Shown: positions 15,516 to 21,850 of the stretch, piece by piece
Numbering within the stretch: position 1 is the first letter of the stretch
Layout: every line of letters begins with the position of its first letter
NCBI GenBank assembly: GCA_016787785.1
Contig: JAEUTO010000007.1
Location: 1 to 64,000, forward strand
DNA length: 64,000 nucleotides
Direction: 5' to 3'
From: Bacteroidia bacterium
GTDB lineage: Bacteria > Bacteroidota > Bacteroidia > B-17B0 > Aurantibacillaceae
Notes under the pieces: model-generated
Told to the model about the DNA's origin: nothing
Seen by the model: only the letters and a program-made list of their open reading frames with translations
Database searches by the model: none
Made by a program: the position numbers and the translations under genes

Positions 15516-17336
15516 ATGAAAAAACACATGCTACTTGGGCTGTTAGCCTTTATGCTGTCAATCAATGTTAACGCTCAATTTGGCGGCTTACTAGATAAAG
15601 CTAAAAAGAAAGCTGAAGAAAAGGCTGCGCAAGAAAAAAAGGAAGCTGAGAAGAAAGCCGAAAACAAAGTTGATAATCCGGTAAATACTTCCGGCTCTGG
15701 AAGTGGTTCAAATAGTAATACCGGCAACGGCTCTAATTCAAACACTTCAAATTCAAACTCGGGGGTTAAGGTAACACCCGTGACGCCAACACCCAAACAA
15801 AGAAAATTAAACTCTAAATTTCCAGAATCAGACTTATATAAAAATAACATTGGCAAAATACTGATGTTTGAATCATTTTCTCCAAAAGTGGAGAAGAAAA
15901 TAGAAGAAAATTTAAAAAATGAACTTGATGTAAATAAGGGAATTGGTTTTTACATGGCATTTCGTTATGGCGCAATTGATGAAATGATATACCCAAACGG
16001 GGATTCGTCAAAAACTGGAAAAGCAGGTTATGAATTAAGTCAGGTTTTTCTTACATATGAATTTAGAACAAAAACAGGTGATATTATTTTAAATTACACT
16101 GAGCCTAACCGAGCAGAAATTTATATTGCTGAATCCCACCTTGAATTCCATGATTATCACGGTTATTATCACGAAGATAGAGGCGAAGGCTACATCGACC
16201 TAATAGATAGTATTCCGAATTACAAAGTCCAAAAGTGGATTGATTTCATTAATAAACTTCCGGTAGGTAAAAGTGAAATTGGAGTAAAAGCTTGGTTTAC
16301 CTCATTTGAAGGACAATACAGTACATCTAAACCAATTGCACAAGGAGAAATAACACTTATTAAACCAACTAAAAACATTGAATTTAATTATCAGAAAATC
16401 TTCGCAAAAAGACTCACAAAAAGACGCTTAAGAGAAATTAATGCCAATTTAATTAAACACGAAGGCATTACAAGTGAAACACACAAAAGCAATATGAACA
16501 AAATTGTTTTTTCAAAAAACCCAATTGAAAAAGGCAAAGAATCAAACTTAACAGATCAATTTTCGGCAACTGATAATATTTTTGGACGATTTTACTTAGA
16601 TAACACCATTAAAAACATTATTACCTACCCTCTTCAAGATAGCACTCGTCCTGAAGTTGGCGGAGAAAGTTTCTTTTATAGAGTGATCATTGATGATACA
16701 AAAGATCTTGACTATAATCGCGCTGGCAAAATGCTTGAAATAAAAGAGTATGGAACCGGATTTGAAAAAAACACAACGCATGCACTACTATTAAAACCAG
16801 ATGTTCAAACGGATGCGGAAAGCACAAATTACCTAATTAACTATTTCTTGAATTGCGAGAAACCCGGGCCTCATAAAGTAACAGTTAATATTTATTACTA
16901 TAGTTCCAAGAACTTGGCAGCAACCGGTAGCTTTACAATTAATAAAACAGCCGGTCAATTTCTTCCCTTCGGTATAAAATTATCAGAAAGTAAAAACTGT
17001 AAGGCGGGCATGTCAAACCCGGCCGTTGAAACAAGTCTTATAGCCGCATTCAAAAAAGAGTACGAAGAAGATTTTATTTCCAATGATGGAGGACCTGTGT
17101 ATACTATTACAAAATGTGTTATATGCGATAAACAATGGACTACAGTTCGCAACGAACTTACTGGTACTATCGTGCAGCGAGCTATTGAAGCCGATCTATA
17201 CTTAAAGGATAATTATGGGCATACAAAATTATTTAAAAAAGTAACCTTTAGGCAAGACTATAACGGCAAAACTTATGGCAATACATTTACTCATGGAGCC
17301 TCTGAAGGTTCTGATTTTGTTATACTAGGAAAATAA
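15516..17336 (+). CDS. Secreted protein of unknown function (FGGLL/KAK family, long form)
   Basis: The 606-residue protein has a signal peptide ending NVNAQ (about 21), then FGGLLDKAKKKAEEKAAQ, a highly charged Lys/Glu/Ala helix (about 25-50), and an Asn/Ser/Gly low-complexity linker (about 53-85). A first folded part (about 95-300) contains ESFSPKVEKKIEENLKNE and AESHLEFHDYHGYYHED. A second part (about 310-606) begins ETHKSNMNKIVFSKNPIEKG and is shared with the next gene. Both folds look beta-rich; no enzymatic motif was found. It follows the LytTR gene by 37 bp and precedes its paralogue by 11 bp, so the three are probably one transcript. Confidence 0.65.
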   Translation: MKKHMLLGLLAFMLSINVNAQFGGLLDKAKKKAEEKAAQEKKEAEKKAENKVDNPVNTSGSGSGSNSNTGNGSNSNTSNSNSGVKVTPVTPTPKQRKLNSKFPESDLYKNNIGKILMFESFSPKVEKKIEENLKNELDVNKGIGFYMAFRYGAIDEMIYPNGDSSKTGKAGYELSQVFLTYEFRTKTGDIILNYTEPNRAEIYIAESHLEFHDYHGYYHEDRGEGYIDLIDSIPNYKVQKWIDFINKLPVGKSEIGVKAWFTSFEGQYSTSKPIAQGEITLIKPTKNIEFNYQKIFAKRLTKRRLREINANLIKHEGITSETHKSNMNKIVFSKNPIEKGKESNLTDQFSATDNIFGRFYLDNTIKNIITYPLQDSTRPEVGGESFFYRVIIDDTKDLDYNRAGKMLEIKEYGTGFEKNTTHALLLKPDVQTDAESTNYLINYFLNCEKPGPHKVTVNIYYYSSKNLAATGSFTINKTAGQFLPFGIKLSESKNCKAGMSNPAVETSLIAAFKKEYEEDFISNDGGPVYTITKCVICDKQWTTVRNELTGTIVQRAIEADLYLKDNYGHTKLFKKVTFRQDYNGKTYGNTFTHGASEGSDFVILGK

Positions 17337-17347
17337 CCTTAAAAAAA

Positions 17348-18550
17348 ATGAAAATGAAAAAAACACTTATTCTACCTGCGCTACTTCTTTCTTGTTCACT
17401 TAGTGCTCAATTTGGCGGATTAATAAATAAAGCTAAACAAATAGGTGAAAAAAAACAGGATGAAAAGAAAATTGAAGAAAAACAAAATACTTCAACTAAT
17501 TCTTCATCTACAGTTACTGCTAATGATGCCAACAACACTACGAGTTCTTCTAACAATGTCAGCACCACAACTTCCGAAACAAAAAAAACCGAAACGAATA
17601 CAACTGTTAACAACAATGCATCTAATGAAACAAAAAAGAGATTTCCGGATGATGGTTATACAAGTGAGGTACATAAGGCAAACATAGGGAAAGTGGTATT
17701 CTCGAAAAAAATGATAGAAAAAGGAAACGAAAAAACAGAAGATTTCATATCCGAAGTTTCAGGAAAAGACCTCTACTTCAGATTCTATTTGGAGAATTCT
17801 TTTTATAACACCTCTATTTTTCCTACTTATCAATATGGTTCGCAGGAACCGCAAGATAACTCTTCTTGCAGTTACTATATTGAAGTTTTAATAGACGGTA
17901 TTGCAATTAAAGACATACCTGAACTTACTTCGATTGGCATAAAACCGCACCTTTACGAGGAAACAGATACCTATGTGATGAGTCATAGCCATAATCTTAA
18001 TGACGAAAAAAAGCTTGCCAGAATAAAATCAACAACAAACGCCTTCTCATTTGGGCAGTGGCCCTTATTTGCAAATTATGTGAAACCCGGCGAACATGTA
18101 ATAAAACTAAATGTTTGGGCCGGATCTGAAGGCTATGCTTCGTATAAAAGCAAAGTACCAGTTGCCACGGGTGAGTTTAAGTATACAAAAAAGGCCGGCG
18201 ATAAGATACCATTTGGAGCTGCCTGGAGTAGCGTTGCAAAAAAACCTGCGATGGTAGATGCCAATTTACAAGCACAAATAAAACAAGCAATTGAAGAAGA
18301 TACAAAAACAAAGTGTATAAAATTGGTAATTATAGACAAAGAATGGACAATTTTTAAAAACTCATTCGGTATTATTGAAAGCCGGCAAATAACCGTTCAG
18401 TACGTTGCAAAAGACTCAAATGGTTATTGCACTGAAGAGTACGCAGGCATGGCACAAAACTACAATAATGGCAAATATGGTCGCATGCGAACTACGGGTG
18501 CAAGTAGCAATGAAGGCCCCGTTTTTATTGATTGTGCAACGGTTAAATAA
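17348..18550 (+). CDS. Secreted protein of unknown function (FGGLL/KAK family, short form)
   Basis: The 400-residue paralogue of the preceding protein has a signal peptide ending SLSAQ, then FGGLINKAKQIGEKKQDEKK, a Thr/Ser/Asn-rich linker (about 42-92), and one folded domain from SEVHKANIGKVVFSKKMIEKG to the C-terminus. The domain contains DLYFRFYLENS and ends near GPVFIDCATVK. Shared landmarks with the neighbour are HKxNxxKxVFSKxxIEKG, xRFYLxN, a Lys-Cys pair followed by KEWT/KQWT, and a closing Gly-rich segment. It probably arose by tandem duplication with loss of the middle domain. About 270 bp downstream (18551-18818) hold nothing recognisable. Confidence 0.65.
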   Translation: MKMKKTLILPALLLSCSLSAQFGGLINKAKQIGEKKQDEKKIEEKQNTSTNSSSTVTANDANNTTSSSNNVSTTTSETKKTETNTTVNNNASNETKKRFPDDGYTSEVHKANIGKVVFSKKMIEKGNEKTEDFISEVSGKDLYFRFYLENSFYNTSIFPTYQYGSQEPQDNSSCSYYIEVLIDGIAIKDIPELTSIGIKPHLYEETDTYVMSHSHNLNDEKKLARIKSTTNAFSFGQWPLFANYVKPGEHVIKLNVWAGSEGYASYKSKVPVATGEFKYTKKAGDKIPFGAAWSSVAKKPAMVDANLQAQIKQAIEEDTKTKCIKLVIIDKEWTIFKNSFGIIESRQITVQYVAKDSNGYCTEEYAGMAQNYNNGKYGRMRTTGASSNEGPVFIDCATVK

Positions 18551-18818: not shown

Positions 18819-19496
18819 TTACACTTTTATTGAATTAAAAAGTAGCGATTCTAAAAACAAAATTATTTTTTTATCATCTGTTTCTTTTGGAAAATCAGTC
18901 AGAGCTGGAAGGTTTTGTTTAAAAAACTTTTGCGCGTGTGCCATCTCTAATATTGTGCTGGCCAGAGAATGTGGATACTTGTACTTTGGATTATATTCTT
19001 TAATAATTAACGAAAACCTTTCACAAAGATCTTTGTATGGCTTAAATAACCTATCCTTATTATCCTTACTTATATTCCTGGTCAGGTAAGCTTTTGAACC
19101 TTCACCTAATACTAATTTGTATGCTTCATATTCCGATAAAAAATCTGAGTTTAAACTCTTGTTCGCAGGTTCTTCGGTGATCAGCCTGATAATTGTTTTA
19201 AGCTTTAACTCTGCATCCGTCATATTATTTAAGCCAAACATAACTTTATATTCAAGATAGCTCCAGTACCAGGTAGTAAGATACACTAATAATCTATGCT
19301 TATTTTCGAAATACCTATAAATACTTGCTTCGGTAGTATTGATCTCGATAGAAAGTTTTTTAAATGTAAATTCCTCAAAACCAAGCTTATTTATTAAAAT
19401 TAGTCCCTGTTTTACTATTTTCTTGCCCAAAGCAGATTCTTCCGGGTTACGAAGGAATAGCTTATCGTTCATCTTAATTCTAATGTCTAAATCCAT
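18819..19496 (-). CDS. TetR-family transcriptional regulator
   Basis: The 225-residue protein has an N-terminal helix-turn-helix of TetR type (about 17-68): IVKQGLILINKLGFEEFTFKKLSIEINTTEASIYRYFENKHRLLVYL. A C-terminal helical ligand-binding and dimerisation domain without recognisable specificity follows. It is divergent from the efflux genes starting at 19604, the usual arrangement for a local repressor. A perfect palindrome lies between them (19548-19566). A -7-like TATATTTA for its own promoter is on the minus strand at 19515-19522, so autoregulation is likely. Confidence 0.88.
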   Translation of the reverse strand: MDLDIRIKMNDKLFLRNPEESALGKKIVKQGLILINKLGFEEFTFKKLSIEINTTEASIYRYFENKHRLLVYLTTWYWSYLEYKVMFGLNNMTDAELKLKTIIRLITEEPANKSLNSDFLSEYEAYKLVLGEGSKAYLTRNISKDNKDRLFKPYKDLCERFSLIIKEYNPKYKYPHSLASTILEMAHAQKFFKQNLPALTDFPKETDDKKIILFLESLLFNSIKV

Positions 19497-19547: not shown

Positions 19548-19566
19548 ATAATAGTATTACTATTAT
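19548..19566. promoter_or_regulatory. Perfect 19-bp palindrome, candidate TetR operator
   Basis: ATAATAGTATTACTATTAT is a perfect inverted repeat (9 + 1 + 9). It lies between the divergent TetR and efflux genes and sits at the -33 region of the promoter whose -7 box is at 19582-19589. Position and symmetry are what is expected for a TetR dimer site that blocks RNA polymerase. Confidence 0.65.
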
Positions 19567-19603: not shown

Positions 19604-21850
19604 ATGAATAAGGCGAACCTGTTATTTAAGTGGCTATATAAAGAAAAGGCAATCATATACCGTATTTATATTTTAGCCCTTTTACAAGGTTTAATGTACC
19701 TGGCCATACCTTTGGGCATACAAGGTATTATAACCTATATCATGGCCGGAAGTTTCTCGGCTTCACTTATTTTATTATGCAGTATAACCATTGTTGTTAC
19801 TGTTTTCATTGGATTCTTCCAGTTATGGCAAATGCGCATCAATGAGACCTTACATCAAAAAATATTTGGCGACTTATCCTCAAAGATAAATTTCTACTTA
19901 ACTGAAAATTCACCCTCACAAGAAACACTTTCTAAATTAAATAGGTTTACAGAAGTGGTGACCTTGCAAAAGGGAATAAGTAAAATATTACTGGATTTTT
20001 CATTCTCTATTATCAGCATCGTATTTGGCTTGATCATACTGCCAATGTACAGTTCCTGGTTTCTTGTGTTTACTGTTTTACTTAGCGCGACCTTTTATCT
20101 CATAATTGCTTATTATGGAAAAAAAGGGATTGATGCCAACATCCAAACCTCAAACGAGAAGTATAAACTGCTTGACGGGTTTCAGGGACACGCATTGCAA
20201 AAAGAACACTTAGACACAACATTAAACACTGAAGATAATTTACGGAGCTACTTCACTTATCGAAATAATTATTATTCTATCGTAGAAAAACAATTTAAAG
20301 GGATCATTATTTTTAAAGTAATATTTATAAGTATGCTTCTTTTTTTTGGCGCCTACTTAGTTCAAAAAGGTGAGCTAAATATTGGACAATTTGTTGCTTC
20401 TGAGATTATTATATTTTTGGTTTTAAACTCAATAGAGAAATTAACCGGGAGCCTAAATACATGTTATGATATTGTTACTGCTCTTTACAAAATTGAAGGA
20501 ATATTTGAAGGAAAAAAAGAATACTCCTTTATATCGGGAAAACACAAATCATTAAATAGCTTATCAACTATCTATTCTAAAACTTACTCAAAAGCCATCA
20601 AGTATTCCTTGTTTCTTATCTTCCTTATTGGTTTTATTACCTTATTAATGCCCTGGACACAAAGCGTTGAATCAGCAGGTAAAGTTACAACACTTAATCC
20701 TGAAAACAGGCCGCAAACCATTACCTCACGCATAGCCGGGAGAATTGAGAAGTGGTACATTAACGAAGGTGATTTTGTGCGAAAGAACGATACGATCGCT
20801 TTCATTTCCGAAGTAAAAGATGACTATATGGATCCTCAATTAATCAGTCGTTCGGAGCAGATCATAAAATCGAAGGAAACATCTCTTCAATCTTATGAAG
20901 ATAAAATTGATGCTGTCAATTCTCAAATAGATGCCTTAAACAAAACTTTGCTTCTAAAAATGCAACAAGCGCGCAATAAAATAATACAGGCAAAAATAAA
21001 AGTTTCAACAGACAGCATTGAGGCCCATACCTCAAACAACAATTTTAAAGTTGCAGAAGAACAATTAAAAAGATATGAAGAACTCGTTATTAAAGGAGTG
21101 GTCTCTAAAACTGACTTAGAAAACCGAAGGGTTAAAGTTCAGGAAGCCCTAGCTAAGAAAACCGCTGCCGACAATAAATTCCTTTCAACTAAAAATGAGC
21201 TCCTCAATTCAGAGATCGACTTAAATTCAGTTCAACAAGAATTTCAGGAAAAACTAATGAAGGCCGAGTCAGACAAATTCTCATCACTCTCATTATTATA
21301 CGAAGGCGAAGGCTCATTAACAAAACTTCAAAATCAACTGGCTAATTACAATATGCGAAAAGGCTACTATTATGTTCTTGCACCGCAAGATGGTTATATT
21401 GCTAAAACAAACACACAAGGTATTGGCGAAATTCTTAAAGAAGGATCGCCATTGTGCAACATTGTTCCTACACAAAATGAACAAGCAGTTGAACTATATA
21501 TAAATCCGGTAGATCTACCACTTATTCAAAAAGGACAAAAGGTTCAACTCCAATTTGATGGCTGGCCGGCTTTTGTATTCTCGGGATGGCCTGGTATTAG
21601 TTATGGCACCTATACTGCGGAGATTGTTGCATATGATAAAGTTTTATCGGACAACGGGAAGTTTAGAATTCTAGCCAAAAATCATGGTTATAAGTGGCCC
21701 GAAGCTATTCAAATTGGCGGCGGTGTAAAAGGCTTTGCGCTATTAAATAATGTTCCATTATTTTACGAACTGTGGCGTAGAGTAAACGGTTTCCCGCCTG
21801 AATTTTATACGGCACCTAAATCAGCAACAAAAAGTAAAAATGAAAAATAA
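19604..21850 (+). CDS. Fusion of ABC-exporter transmembrane domain (no ATPase) with HlyD-type adaptor
   Basis: The 748-residue protein has two parts. Residues 1 to about 315 resemble the six-helix membrane domain of type I/peptide ABC exporters (RIYILALLQGLMYLAIPLGIQGIITYI, INETLHQKIFGDLSSKINFYL, FGAYLVQKGELNIGQFVASEIIIFLVLNSIEKL). The nucleotide-binding domain expected next, with Walker A, signature and Walker B, is absent. Instead a further membrane helix (about 329-347) leads into an HlyD/membrane-fusion adaptor: a lipoyl-like half SRIAGRIEKWYINEGDFVRKNDTIAFI, a long coiled-coil hairpin (about 425-570), and the second half YYYVLAPQDGYIAKTNTQGIGEILKEG. A TolC-type gene overlaps its end, giving a probable three-layer exporter. 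The energy source is unclear; a separate ATPase elsewhere could serve it. Confidence 0.8.
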   Translation: MNKANLLFKWLYKEKAIIYRIYILALLQGLMYLAIPLGIQGIITYIMAGSFSASLILLCSITIVVTVFIGFFQLWQMRINETLHQKIFGDLSSKINFYLTENSPSQETLSKLNRFTEVVTLQKGISKILLDFSFSIISIVFGLIILPMYSSWFLVFTVLLSATFYLIIAYYGKKGIDANIQTSNEKYKLLDGFQGHALQKEHLDTTLNTEDNLRSYFTYRNNYYSIVEKQFKGIIIFKVIFISMLLFFGAYLVQKGELNIGQFVASEIIIFLVLNSIEKLTGSLNTCYDIVTALYKIEGIFEGKKEYSFISGKHKSLNSLSTIYSKTYSKAIKYSLFLIFLIGFITLLMPWTQSVESAGKVTTLNPENRPQTITSRIAGRIEKWYINEGDFVRKNDTIAFISEVKDDYMDPQLISRSEQIIKSKETSLQSYEDKIDAVNSQIDALNKTLLLKMQQARNKIIQAKIKVSTDSIEAHTSNNNFKVAEEQLKRYEELVIKGVVSKTDLENRRVKVQEALAKKTAADNKFLSTKNELLNSEIDLNSVQQEFQEKLMKAESDKFSSLSLLYEGEGSLTKLQNQLANYNMRKGYYYVLAPQDGYIAKTNTQGIGEILKEGSPLCNIVPTQNEQAVELYINPVDLPLIQKGQKVQLQFDGWPAFVFSGWPGISYGTYTAEIVAYDKVLSDNGKFRILAKNHGYKWPEAIQIGGGVKGFALLNNVPLFYELWRRVNGFPPEFYTAPKSATKSKNEK

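Follow-up and report, generated by a model that had tools for sequence, protein, structure and literature searches.

A natural fusion of an ABC-exporter membrane domain to an HlyD adaptor, without an ATPase, in Bacteroidia

What defines an ATP-binding cassette (ABC) transporter is its ATPase. Here we describe a natural protein which, by its fold and its operon, is an exporter of the ABC or type I secretion system (T1SS) type, and which fails this defining feature. It is encoded in a 64,000-nucleotide stretch of contig JAEUTO010000007.1 from a Bacteroidia bacterium (assembly GCA_016787785.1), referred to below as the window, and consists of a single chain of 748 residues in which an ABC-exporter membrane domain is joined to a periplasmic adaptor of the HlyD type. 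The chain carries no nucleotide-binding domain (NBD), and the fusion probably works independently of ATP.

The first part of the fusion is an ABC-exporter membrane domain, a conclusion on which four tests agree. The Pfam family ABC_membrane (PF00664) matches with 29.4 bits against a gathering score of 28, with its best stretch at residues 22-184, and a family profile, which was built from the window's fusion protein among others, covers residues 2-301. Foldseek searches with AlphaFold models of low to moderate confidence (predicted local distance difference test, pLDDT, 54.6 and predicted template modelling score, pTM, 0.35 for the full fusion; 63.4 and 0.52 for residues 1-319) placed ABC exporters on top in both cases, namely ComA, PCAT1 and HlyB for the full-length model, for which EmrA (4tko) was also matched, and PCAT1, ComA and TAP for the shorter one, with a TM-score by query of up to 0.75 among the best 50 matches. 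Profile-profile alignment of 22 ATPase-bearing relatives with Escherichia coli MsbA and five exporters of the window's own genome was colinear, at E 4.6e-97. In the fourth test, with NCBIfam models, the best matches of the N-terminal half are NHLM and T1SS permeases, all far under their cut-offs. A sequence search of the PDB with the fusion returned 5l22 (E 1.6e-4), an ABC transporter of the HlyB subfamily, and 7znu (E 1.5).

The C-terminal half is an HlyD adaptor, with barrel-sandwich (lipoyl) halves and a hairpin that follow a membrane helix. HlyD_3 (PF13437) matches residues 591-653 with 47.3 bits against 22.2, PF16576 scores 34.7 against 30 bits, and the best NCBIfam matches are type I HlyD models, among which TIGR01843 reaches 71.5, under its cut-off of 208.65. 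The seventh helix lies at residues ~331-352 by hydrophobicity and at 328-348 in the AlphaFold model, and the full model contains a long helical hairpin made of helices 411-496 and 502-566. The topology would also be consistent, with six helices ending in the cytosol and the seventh returning the chain to the periplasm, where HlyD belongs. Pfam gave no match to ABC_tran at E<=1 anywhere in the 748 residues. An earlier interpretation of this DNA, here called the sequence-only reading, had taken residues 1-315 for a six-helix ABC exporter domain, joined in one chain to the adaptor, devoid of an ATPase domain and coupled to TolC. Each of these points holds: structure prediction of the N-terminal half did not refute the domain assignment, PF00664 and PF13437 match within the same open reading frame, and a TolC-family gene found by PF02321 overlaps the end of the fusion gene by 11 bases.

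The fusion recurs in related genomes, as the homologue search proposed in the sequence-only reading revealed. A first survey gave matches in 33 of 60 relatives, in two arrangements. The fusion occurs in the window's genus; four genomes of this genus, as well as others, have an ABC gene with membrane domain and NBD, followed by separate HlyD and TolC genes. A sample of 395 genomes across the phylum contained 98 membrane-domain matches in 97 genomes, and the 97 that were read (all except G169:C8) comprise one fusion, that of the window, six genes with the membrane domain only, followed by HlyD and TolC, and 90 genes with both membrane domain and NBD. Among 93 newly fetched survey loci, homologues of HlyD were detected at 90, of TolC at 89 and of the TetR regulator at 45. 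Within the window's order, 46 of the 87 genomes searched had a match, divided into 36 fusions (34 of full length and two cut by contig ends), nine genes with membrane domain and NBD and one cut-off, unclassified match (G458). The 34 full-length fusions come from five genera of one family, and the fusion is therefore neither chance nor an assembly error. Before counting, we dropped L047 (identical in sequence to L002), L235, L236 and L241 (on the same contigs as L005, L003 and L001, respectively), the partial fusions G002, G022 and G031, and G458.

The 748-residue frame of G246 was considered as a second fusion and ruled out, as it is an N-terminally extended protein with membrane domain and NBD. 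The ABC proteins of L060, L061, L062, L067, L068 and L069 have an N-terminal extension of ~150 residues, in which no credible Pfam match was found in the five scanned (L060, L061, L062, L068, L069). Peptidase-containing exporters have their C39 domain at the position of this extension. Genome G050 holds two copies of the operon with a pseudo-ABC protein, HlyD and TolC (L068 and L069), each with its own TetR gene. Among the loci with the membrane domain only (L106-L111), a TetR homologue was detected near L106 alone.

The relatives that still bear an ATPase illustrate how the domain may have been lost. Seven catalytic features were scored in 101 of their NBDs, with six canonical exporters of the window's own genome as reference, which show 6-7 of the 7. 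The highest total among the relatives was 5, and the 69 NBDs from inside the window's class have only 0-3 (Walker A in 58, the Walker B Asp in 8, the catalytic Glu in 9 and the H-loop His in 2); in the four ATPase-bearing relatives from the window's genus, even Walker A is gone. An LSGGQ-type signature occurs in none of 106 ATPase domains, comprising the 101 scored and five from the window's own family, with LSTGQ or LSTGE (L124, L131, L133-L135) counted as not canonical. The lack of this signature and the in-class scores of at most 3 of 7 argue that the ATPase decayed prior to its deletion. Outside the class (32 NBDs), 26 combine Walker A with the Walker B Asp and the catalytic Glu, and 21 of these also have the H-loop His. 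The same 26 (e.g. L113, L116, L124, L127, L131, L133) are without the Q-loop Gln and have odd signatures such as LPLGL, ISFGM and LSTGQ; they are possibly active, if unusual, ATPases that would represent a stage preceding decay.

At the position of the fusion's linker, the two-gene relatives have the ATPase domain, a stop codon and the start of HlyD. This comparison indicates that the ATPase domain would have been deleted between neighbouring ABC and HlyD genes, following the loss of its motifs in relatives. The proposal of the sequence-only reading that the adaptor has replaced the NBD is thus right as to the absence of the NBD and somewhat inaccurate as to replacement. A tree of 127 membrane domains groups the fusions in a single clade (SH-like approximate likelihood ratio test, SH-aLRT, 100) among proteins with degenerate NBDs, and the genes with the membrane domain only in a separate one (SH-aLRT 99). 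A tree of 146 rows has the same clades, and its best topology needs two losses of the ATPase, so that the domain was probably lost twice, once by fusion to HlyD; the root of the membrane-domain tree is not firm, as the outgroup branch is saturated.

The cytosolic coupling loops, by which an NBD would be held, changed as well. Counted between conserved anchors, intracellular loop 1 (ICL1) has 40 residues and ICL2 42 residues in 105 of 106 ATPase-bearing members each, and both are shortened in 31 of the 34 fusions (ICL1 to 33-38, ICL2 to 28-37 residues). The three fusions with 40 and 42 residues (L054, L055, L232) are exactly those outside the clade, supported at 99%, of the other 31, which fits a loss of the NBD first and an erosion of the loops later.

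What remained of the exporter is conserved. Lys123, Ser183, Lys186, Gly249, Gly261 and Lys296 are invariant in all 146 membrane domains, and the position of Glu267, which in helix 6 sits seven residues past the start of the hydrophobic segment, is Glu in 144 (104 of 106 ATPase-bearing, 6 of 6 with the membrane domain only and 34 of 34 fused), the two exceptions being Gln and Asp. Furthermore, of the 146 domains, 138 have Glu and 6 have Asp at position 278, Lys279 is Lys in 140, and Gln122, which like Lys123 lies near coupling loop 1, is kept in 143. The conserved charges persist with or without the ATPase. By alignment, the MsbA residue equivalent to Glu267 is Phe288, and none of the six canonical exporters of the window's genome has Glu in this column, with L009 having one two residues earlier. 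Purifying selection acts on the fused membrane domain: in six pairs, the proportion of nonsynonymous differences (pN) was 0.09-0.17 versus 0.80-0.89 for synonymous ones (pS), which are given here without their ratio, as synonymous sites were saturated in all six.

Conservation extends to the regulation of the system. The 15-nucleotide core of a palindrome in the divergent promoter region, a probable TetR operator, was searched with <=2 mismatches, leaving aside one of the 34 fusions with too little upstream DNA. At loci with a TetR gene, it was found at 27 of 31 fusions, 43 of 56 ATPase-bearing operons and the single operon with the membrane domain only; at loci without a TetR gene, at 0 of 2, 1 of 50 and 0 of 5, respectively; and in control segments at 38 of 2089. 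Judged by these sequences, the same TetR regulator seems to have controlled the system both with the ATPase and since its loss, and an operator common to operons with and without the ATPase argues that the physiological role was kept.

From this material we infer the order of events, transport, ion coupling, dimerisation and the handling of the substrate. Within a TolC efflux system under TetR control, the fusion would be the inner-membrane half and would descend from an ABC exporter, whose ATPase would first have become a pseudo-enzyme and would then have been deleted, joining the membrane domain to the HlyD adaptor of the adjoining gene. Most likely, the fusion would dimerise through its membrane domain, which would alternate between inward- and outward-open states without ATP and would deliver the substrate straight into the duct of HlyD and TolC. 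The fusion would most likely draw its energy from an ion gradient, with protons as the first candidate and Glu267 and neighbouring conserved charges as putative coupling residues. We favour, at slightly less than even confidence, that the fusion may be an ion-driven exporter which feeds HlyD and TolC. The wider proposal, that a phylum-wide family of ABC exporters turned into secondary-active, ion-driven transporters, with the ATPase first a pseudo-enzyme and then shed and the charge network of Glu267 taking over the coupling, is more tentative still. Precedents for ion coupling come from truncated exporters: LmrA without its NBD is described as performing ethidium-proton symport and ion transport in proteoliposomes, with Glu314 of helix 6 needed for dependence on the pH gradient (PMC2704374), and MsbA without its NBD as performing transport driven by the pH gradient (PMC4979069).

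Several observations weigh against an ion-driven exporter or the history proposed for it. The Glu314Ala exchange in LmrA reportedly abolished dependence on the pH gradient and not on the membrane potential (PMC2704374), and NBD-less MsbA was less effective than the full protein (half-maximal inhibitory concentrations of 0.094 versus 0.393 µM, control 0.004; PMC4979069); according to a later report, the ATP-induced ion current of LmrA needs the NBD, none being seen with the isolated membrane domain, LmrA-MD (PMC6155054). Glu314 of LmrA lies 74 residues before the Walker A lysine, and in MsbA and L057 the distance from the equivalent of Glu267 to this lysine is 94-97 residues, which places Glu314 roughly 16-23 residues further along. 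On this spacing, an identity of Glu267 with Glu314 was dropped; the two are analogous at best, and the likeness to LmrA is one of kind, not of site. Walker A is retained in 89 of the 101 scored NBDs of relatives, and ancestral NBDs may therefore still bind ATP; the 26 outside-class NBDs in which Walker A is accompanied by the Walker B Asp and the catalytic Glu may be active. The six proteins with the membrane domain only keep both coupling loops at full length with no ATPase fused, so that a cytosolic partner is conceivable for these members. With regard to the two losses, a tree in which all ATPase-less forms arise only once is not significantly worse in an approximately unbiased (AU) test (p 0.124), and the tree program warns of long branches that meet at the base of the fusions. 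Both AlphaFold models, built with no more than six aligned sequences, are weak, and for this reason only the fold class was taken from them.

The strongest rival to an ion-driven exporter is a structural or passive role, which we regard as somewhat less likely. The fusion would then not be a pump, and its membrane domain would be a dimerising anchor or a gated passive conduit that places HlyD under TolC; substrates would enter the duct from the periplasm or run down their own gradient. The shortened coupling loops speak for such a role, and a fusion of anchor and adaptor would fit it. Set against it are the charges deep in the membrane domain and along helices 3, 4 and 6, whose invariance or near-invariance would go beyond the needs of an anchor, as well as the retention of the probable TetR operator.

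An ATPase acting in trans, which the sequence-only reading had offered as one source of energy, is improbable and found little support. Here, a stand-alone NBD, or a canonical exporter in a mixed dimer with the fusion, would supply ATP hydrolysis, as ABC membrane domains normally need NBDs; the retention of Lys123 and Gln122 near coupling loop 1 and the full-length loops of the members with the membrane domain only are in its favour. The window's genome is 100% complete and has 45 PF00005 matches, of which 30 were read, and the 15 outside this set also leave room for such a partner. Among the 30 loci read, no stand-alone ATPase of the exporter type was found: each of the six exporter-type NBDs (347-389 bits) shares its chain with a membrane domain, and stand-alone NBDs reach at best 131 bits, far below the six, on a profile that was made from these same six exporters, whose high scores are thus partly by construction. 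A 211-residue piece at 323 bits is the truncated end of an exporter that belongs to a neighbouring locus.

Searches for exporter-type NBDs in 18 fusion genomes (including G002, G022 and G031, in which the fusion is cut by contig ends) likewise revealed no recurring stand-alone ATPase, with 83 of 90 matches lying in frames of at least 531 residues. Among the seven shorter frames, three that were read end at contig ends (G010:C379, G011:C155, G012:C142), two begin at base 5 (G022:C213) and base 2 (G031:C316) of their contigs, and G010:C404 (428 residues) and G020:C98 (487 residues) are known by frame length only. In seven genomes of members with the membrane domain only or of sister lineages, one of 64 exporter-type matches was short, a 324-residue stand-alone NBD in G136 that scores 152 bits. 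No ATPase gene recurs in the fusion operons or in related ones, and five genes beside outer-clade loci which were considered as ATPase partners proved unrelated (UvrA, OmpA-family, FG-GAP, RecG and BPD_transp_2). The shortening of both coupling loops in most fusions also speaks against a partner in trans, and, given the decay of the NBDs inside the class, complete ATP sites would be rare in mixed dimers.

A regulatory or sensory device is less probable again. In such a device, the membrane domain and the product of a CutA1-like gene, a PII-like trimer, would form a gate which, without pumping the ligand, would report or control it. PII proteins, to which CutA1 trimers are similar, can act as gates on transporters, and this likeness makes a regulatory role of the CutA1-like protein plausible. 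A profile of 14 CutA1-like homologues matches CutA1 structures (best 1.5e-9), and 13 of the 14, all except the window's own copy, match PF03091 at E<=1 (best 4.1e-11). The gene is found near 20 of the 34 fusions: in 12 it follows TolC, in seven it stands between TetR and the fusion, and in one it lies beyond TetR; in L244 the distance is ~2 kb. Of the nine operons of the same family that bear an ATPase, four have the gene between TetR and the ABC gene. In these 24 fusion or pseudo-ABC operons it often adjoins or overlaps an operon gene. This variety of positions within one family suggests a real but lineage-specific link. The gene was found near none of the 93 survey loci and not near 14 of the 34 fusions, some of which lie close to contig ends, so that the mechanism is unlikely to depend on it. 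A decaying pseudogene or an assembly artefact, to which the loss of the ATPase might point, has a negligible probability, as it is refuted by the 34 open, full-length fusions in five genera, by purifying selection and by the conserved operator.

The layout of the locus is given in Table 1. The divergent promoter region between the TetR gene and the fusion gene comprises 107 bases, and the CutA1-like gene overlaps the TolC gene by 4 bases. Further upstream, two adjoining proteins, at 15516-17336 (606 residues) and 17348-18550 (400 residues), share a start that resembles a secretion signal, followed by FGGLLxKAK, and are possibly paralogues.

Table 1. Features of the fusion locus, with positions in the window.
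Feature	Position	Strand	Basis or remark
TetR-family regulator gene	18819..19496	-	divergent to the fusion gene; PF00440 26.8 vs 24 bits
Probable TetR operator ATAATAGTATTACTATTAT, palindrome with perfect 9-nucleotide arms	19548..19566	.	divergent promoter region
Fusion gene, 748 residues, ATG start: ABC-exporter membrane domain and HlyD adaptor, without ATPase	19604..21850	+	
Six-helix ABC-exporter membrane domain, residues 1-302	19604..20509	+	PF00664, family profile, Foldseek, profile-profile alignment
Glu267 codon, inside helix 6	20402..20404	+	conservation across the family alignment
Junction, a short linker, residues 303-330	20510..20593	+	comparison with two-gene relatives
Seventh membrane helix and HlyD periplasmic adaptor (lipoyl halves, long coiled coil)	20594..21850	+	PF13437, TIGR01843, model
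TolC-family outer-membrane factor gene, 466 residues	21840..23240	+	PF02321 87.5 vs 22 bits
CutA1-like gene, 99 residues	23237..23536	+	profile of 14 homologues vs CutA1 structures

The reported ion-gradient function of ABC membrane domains, as in LmrA and MsbA, rests on engineered truncations. A lineage that makes this cut naturally, with purifying selection in dozens of species and a probable operator kept, is a natural test of the ion-driven claim, and it also tests how primary pumps can turn into secondary ones. In addition, a transporter and an adaptor in one chain fix their stoichiometry, which may simplify structural work on tripartite pumps. No natural ABC exporter without an NBD and no fusion of such a membrane domain to HlyD was described among the matches listed from the open-licence literature of PubMed Central, a collection that leaves most subscription papers uncovered.

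Among known systems, HlyB-HlyD-TolC, PrtD, PCAT1, ComA and the NHLM exporters share with the family the fold of the membrane domain and the gene set of ABC protein, HlyD and TolC. The fusion differs from these type I secretion and peptidase-containing exporters in that it is without an ATPase, that the ATPase of its relatives is degenerate and that membrane domain and adaptor form one chain, and the corresponding NCBIfam models all stay under their cut-offs for it. EmrAB-TolC and related pumps of the major facilitator superfamily (MFS) combine an HlyD-type adaptor and a TolC exit with a gradient-driven inner part; the fusion shares with them the HlyD-type adaptor and the TolC exit, and its inner part has the fold of an ABC exporter, whereas EmrB is an MFS protein. 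Exporters of the TM287/288, TAP and BmrCD type, which have one degenerate site, keep one complete ATP site; their partial loss of catalytic residues recalls that of the relatives, whereas the fusion has no NBD at all. Degenerate ATP sites in ABC exporters as such have been described (PMC7544095). LmrA-MD and MsbA-MD are, like the fusion, ABC-exporter membrane domains without an NBD, and LmrA-MD is reported to be proton-coupled. These two are laboratory truncations of ATP-driven exporters, whereas the loss in the fusion is natural and conserved, and the membrane domain has been joined to an adaptor.

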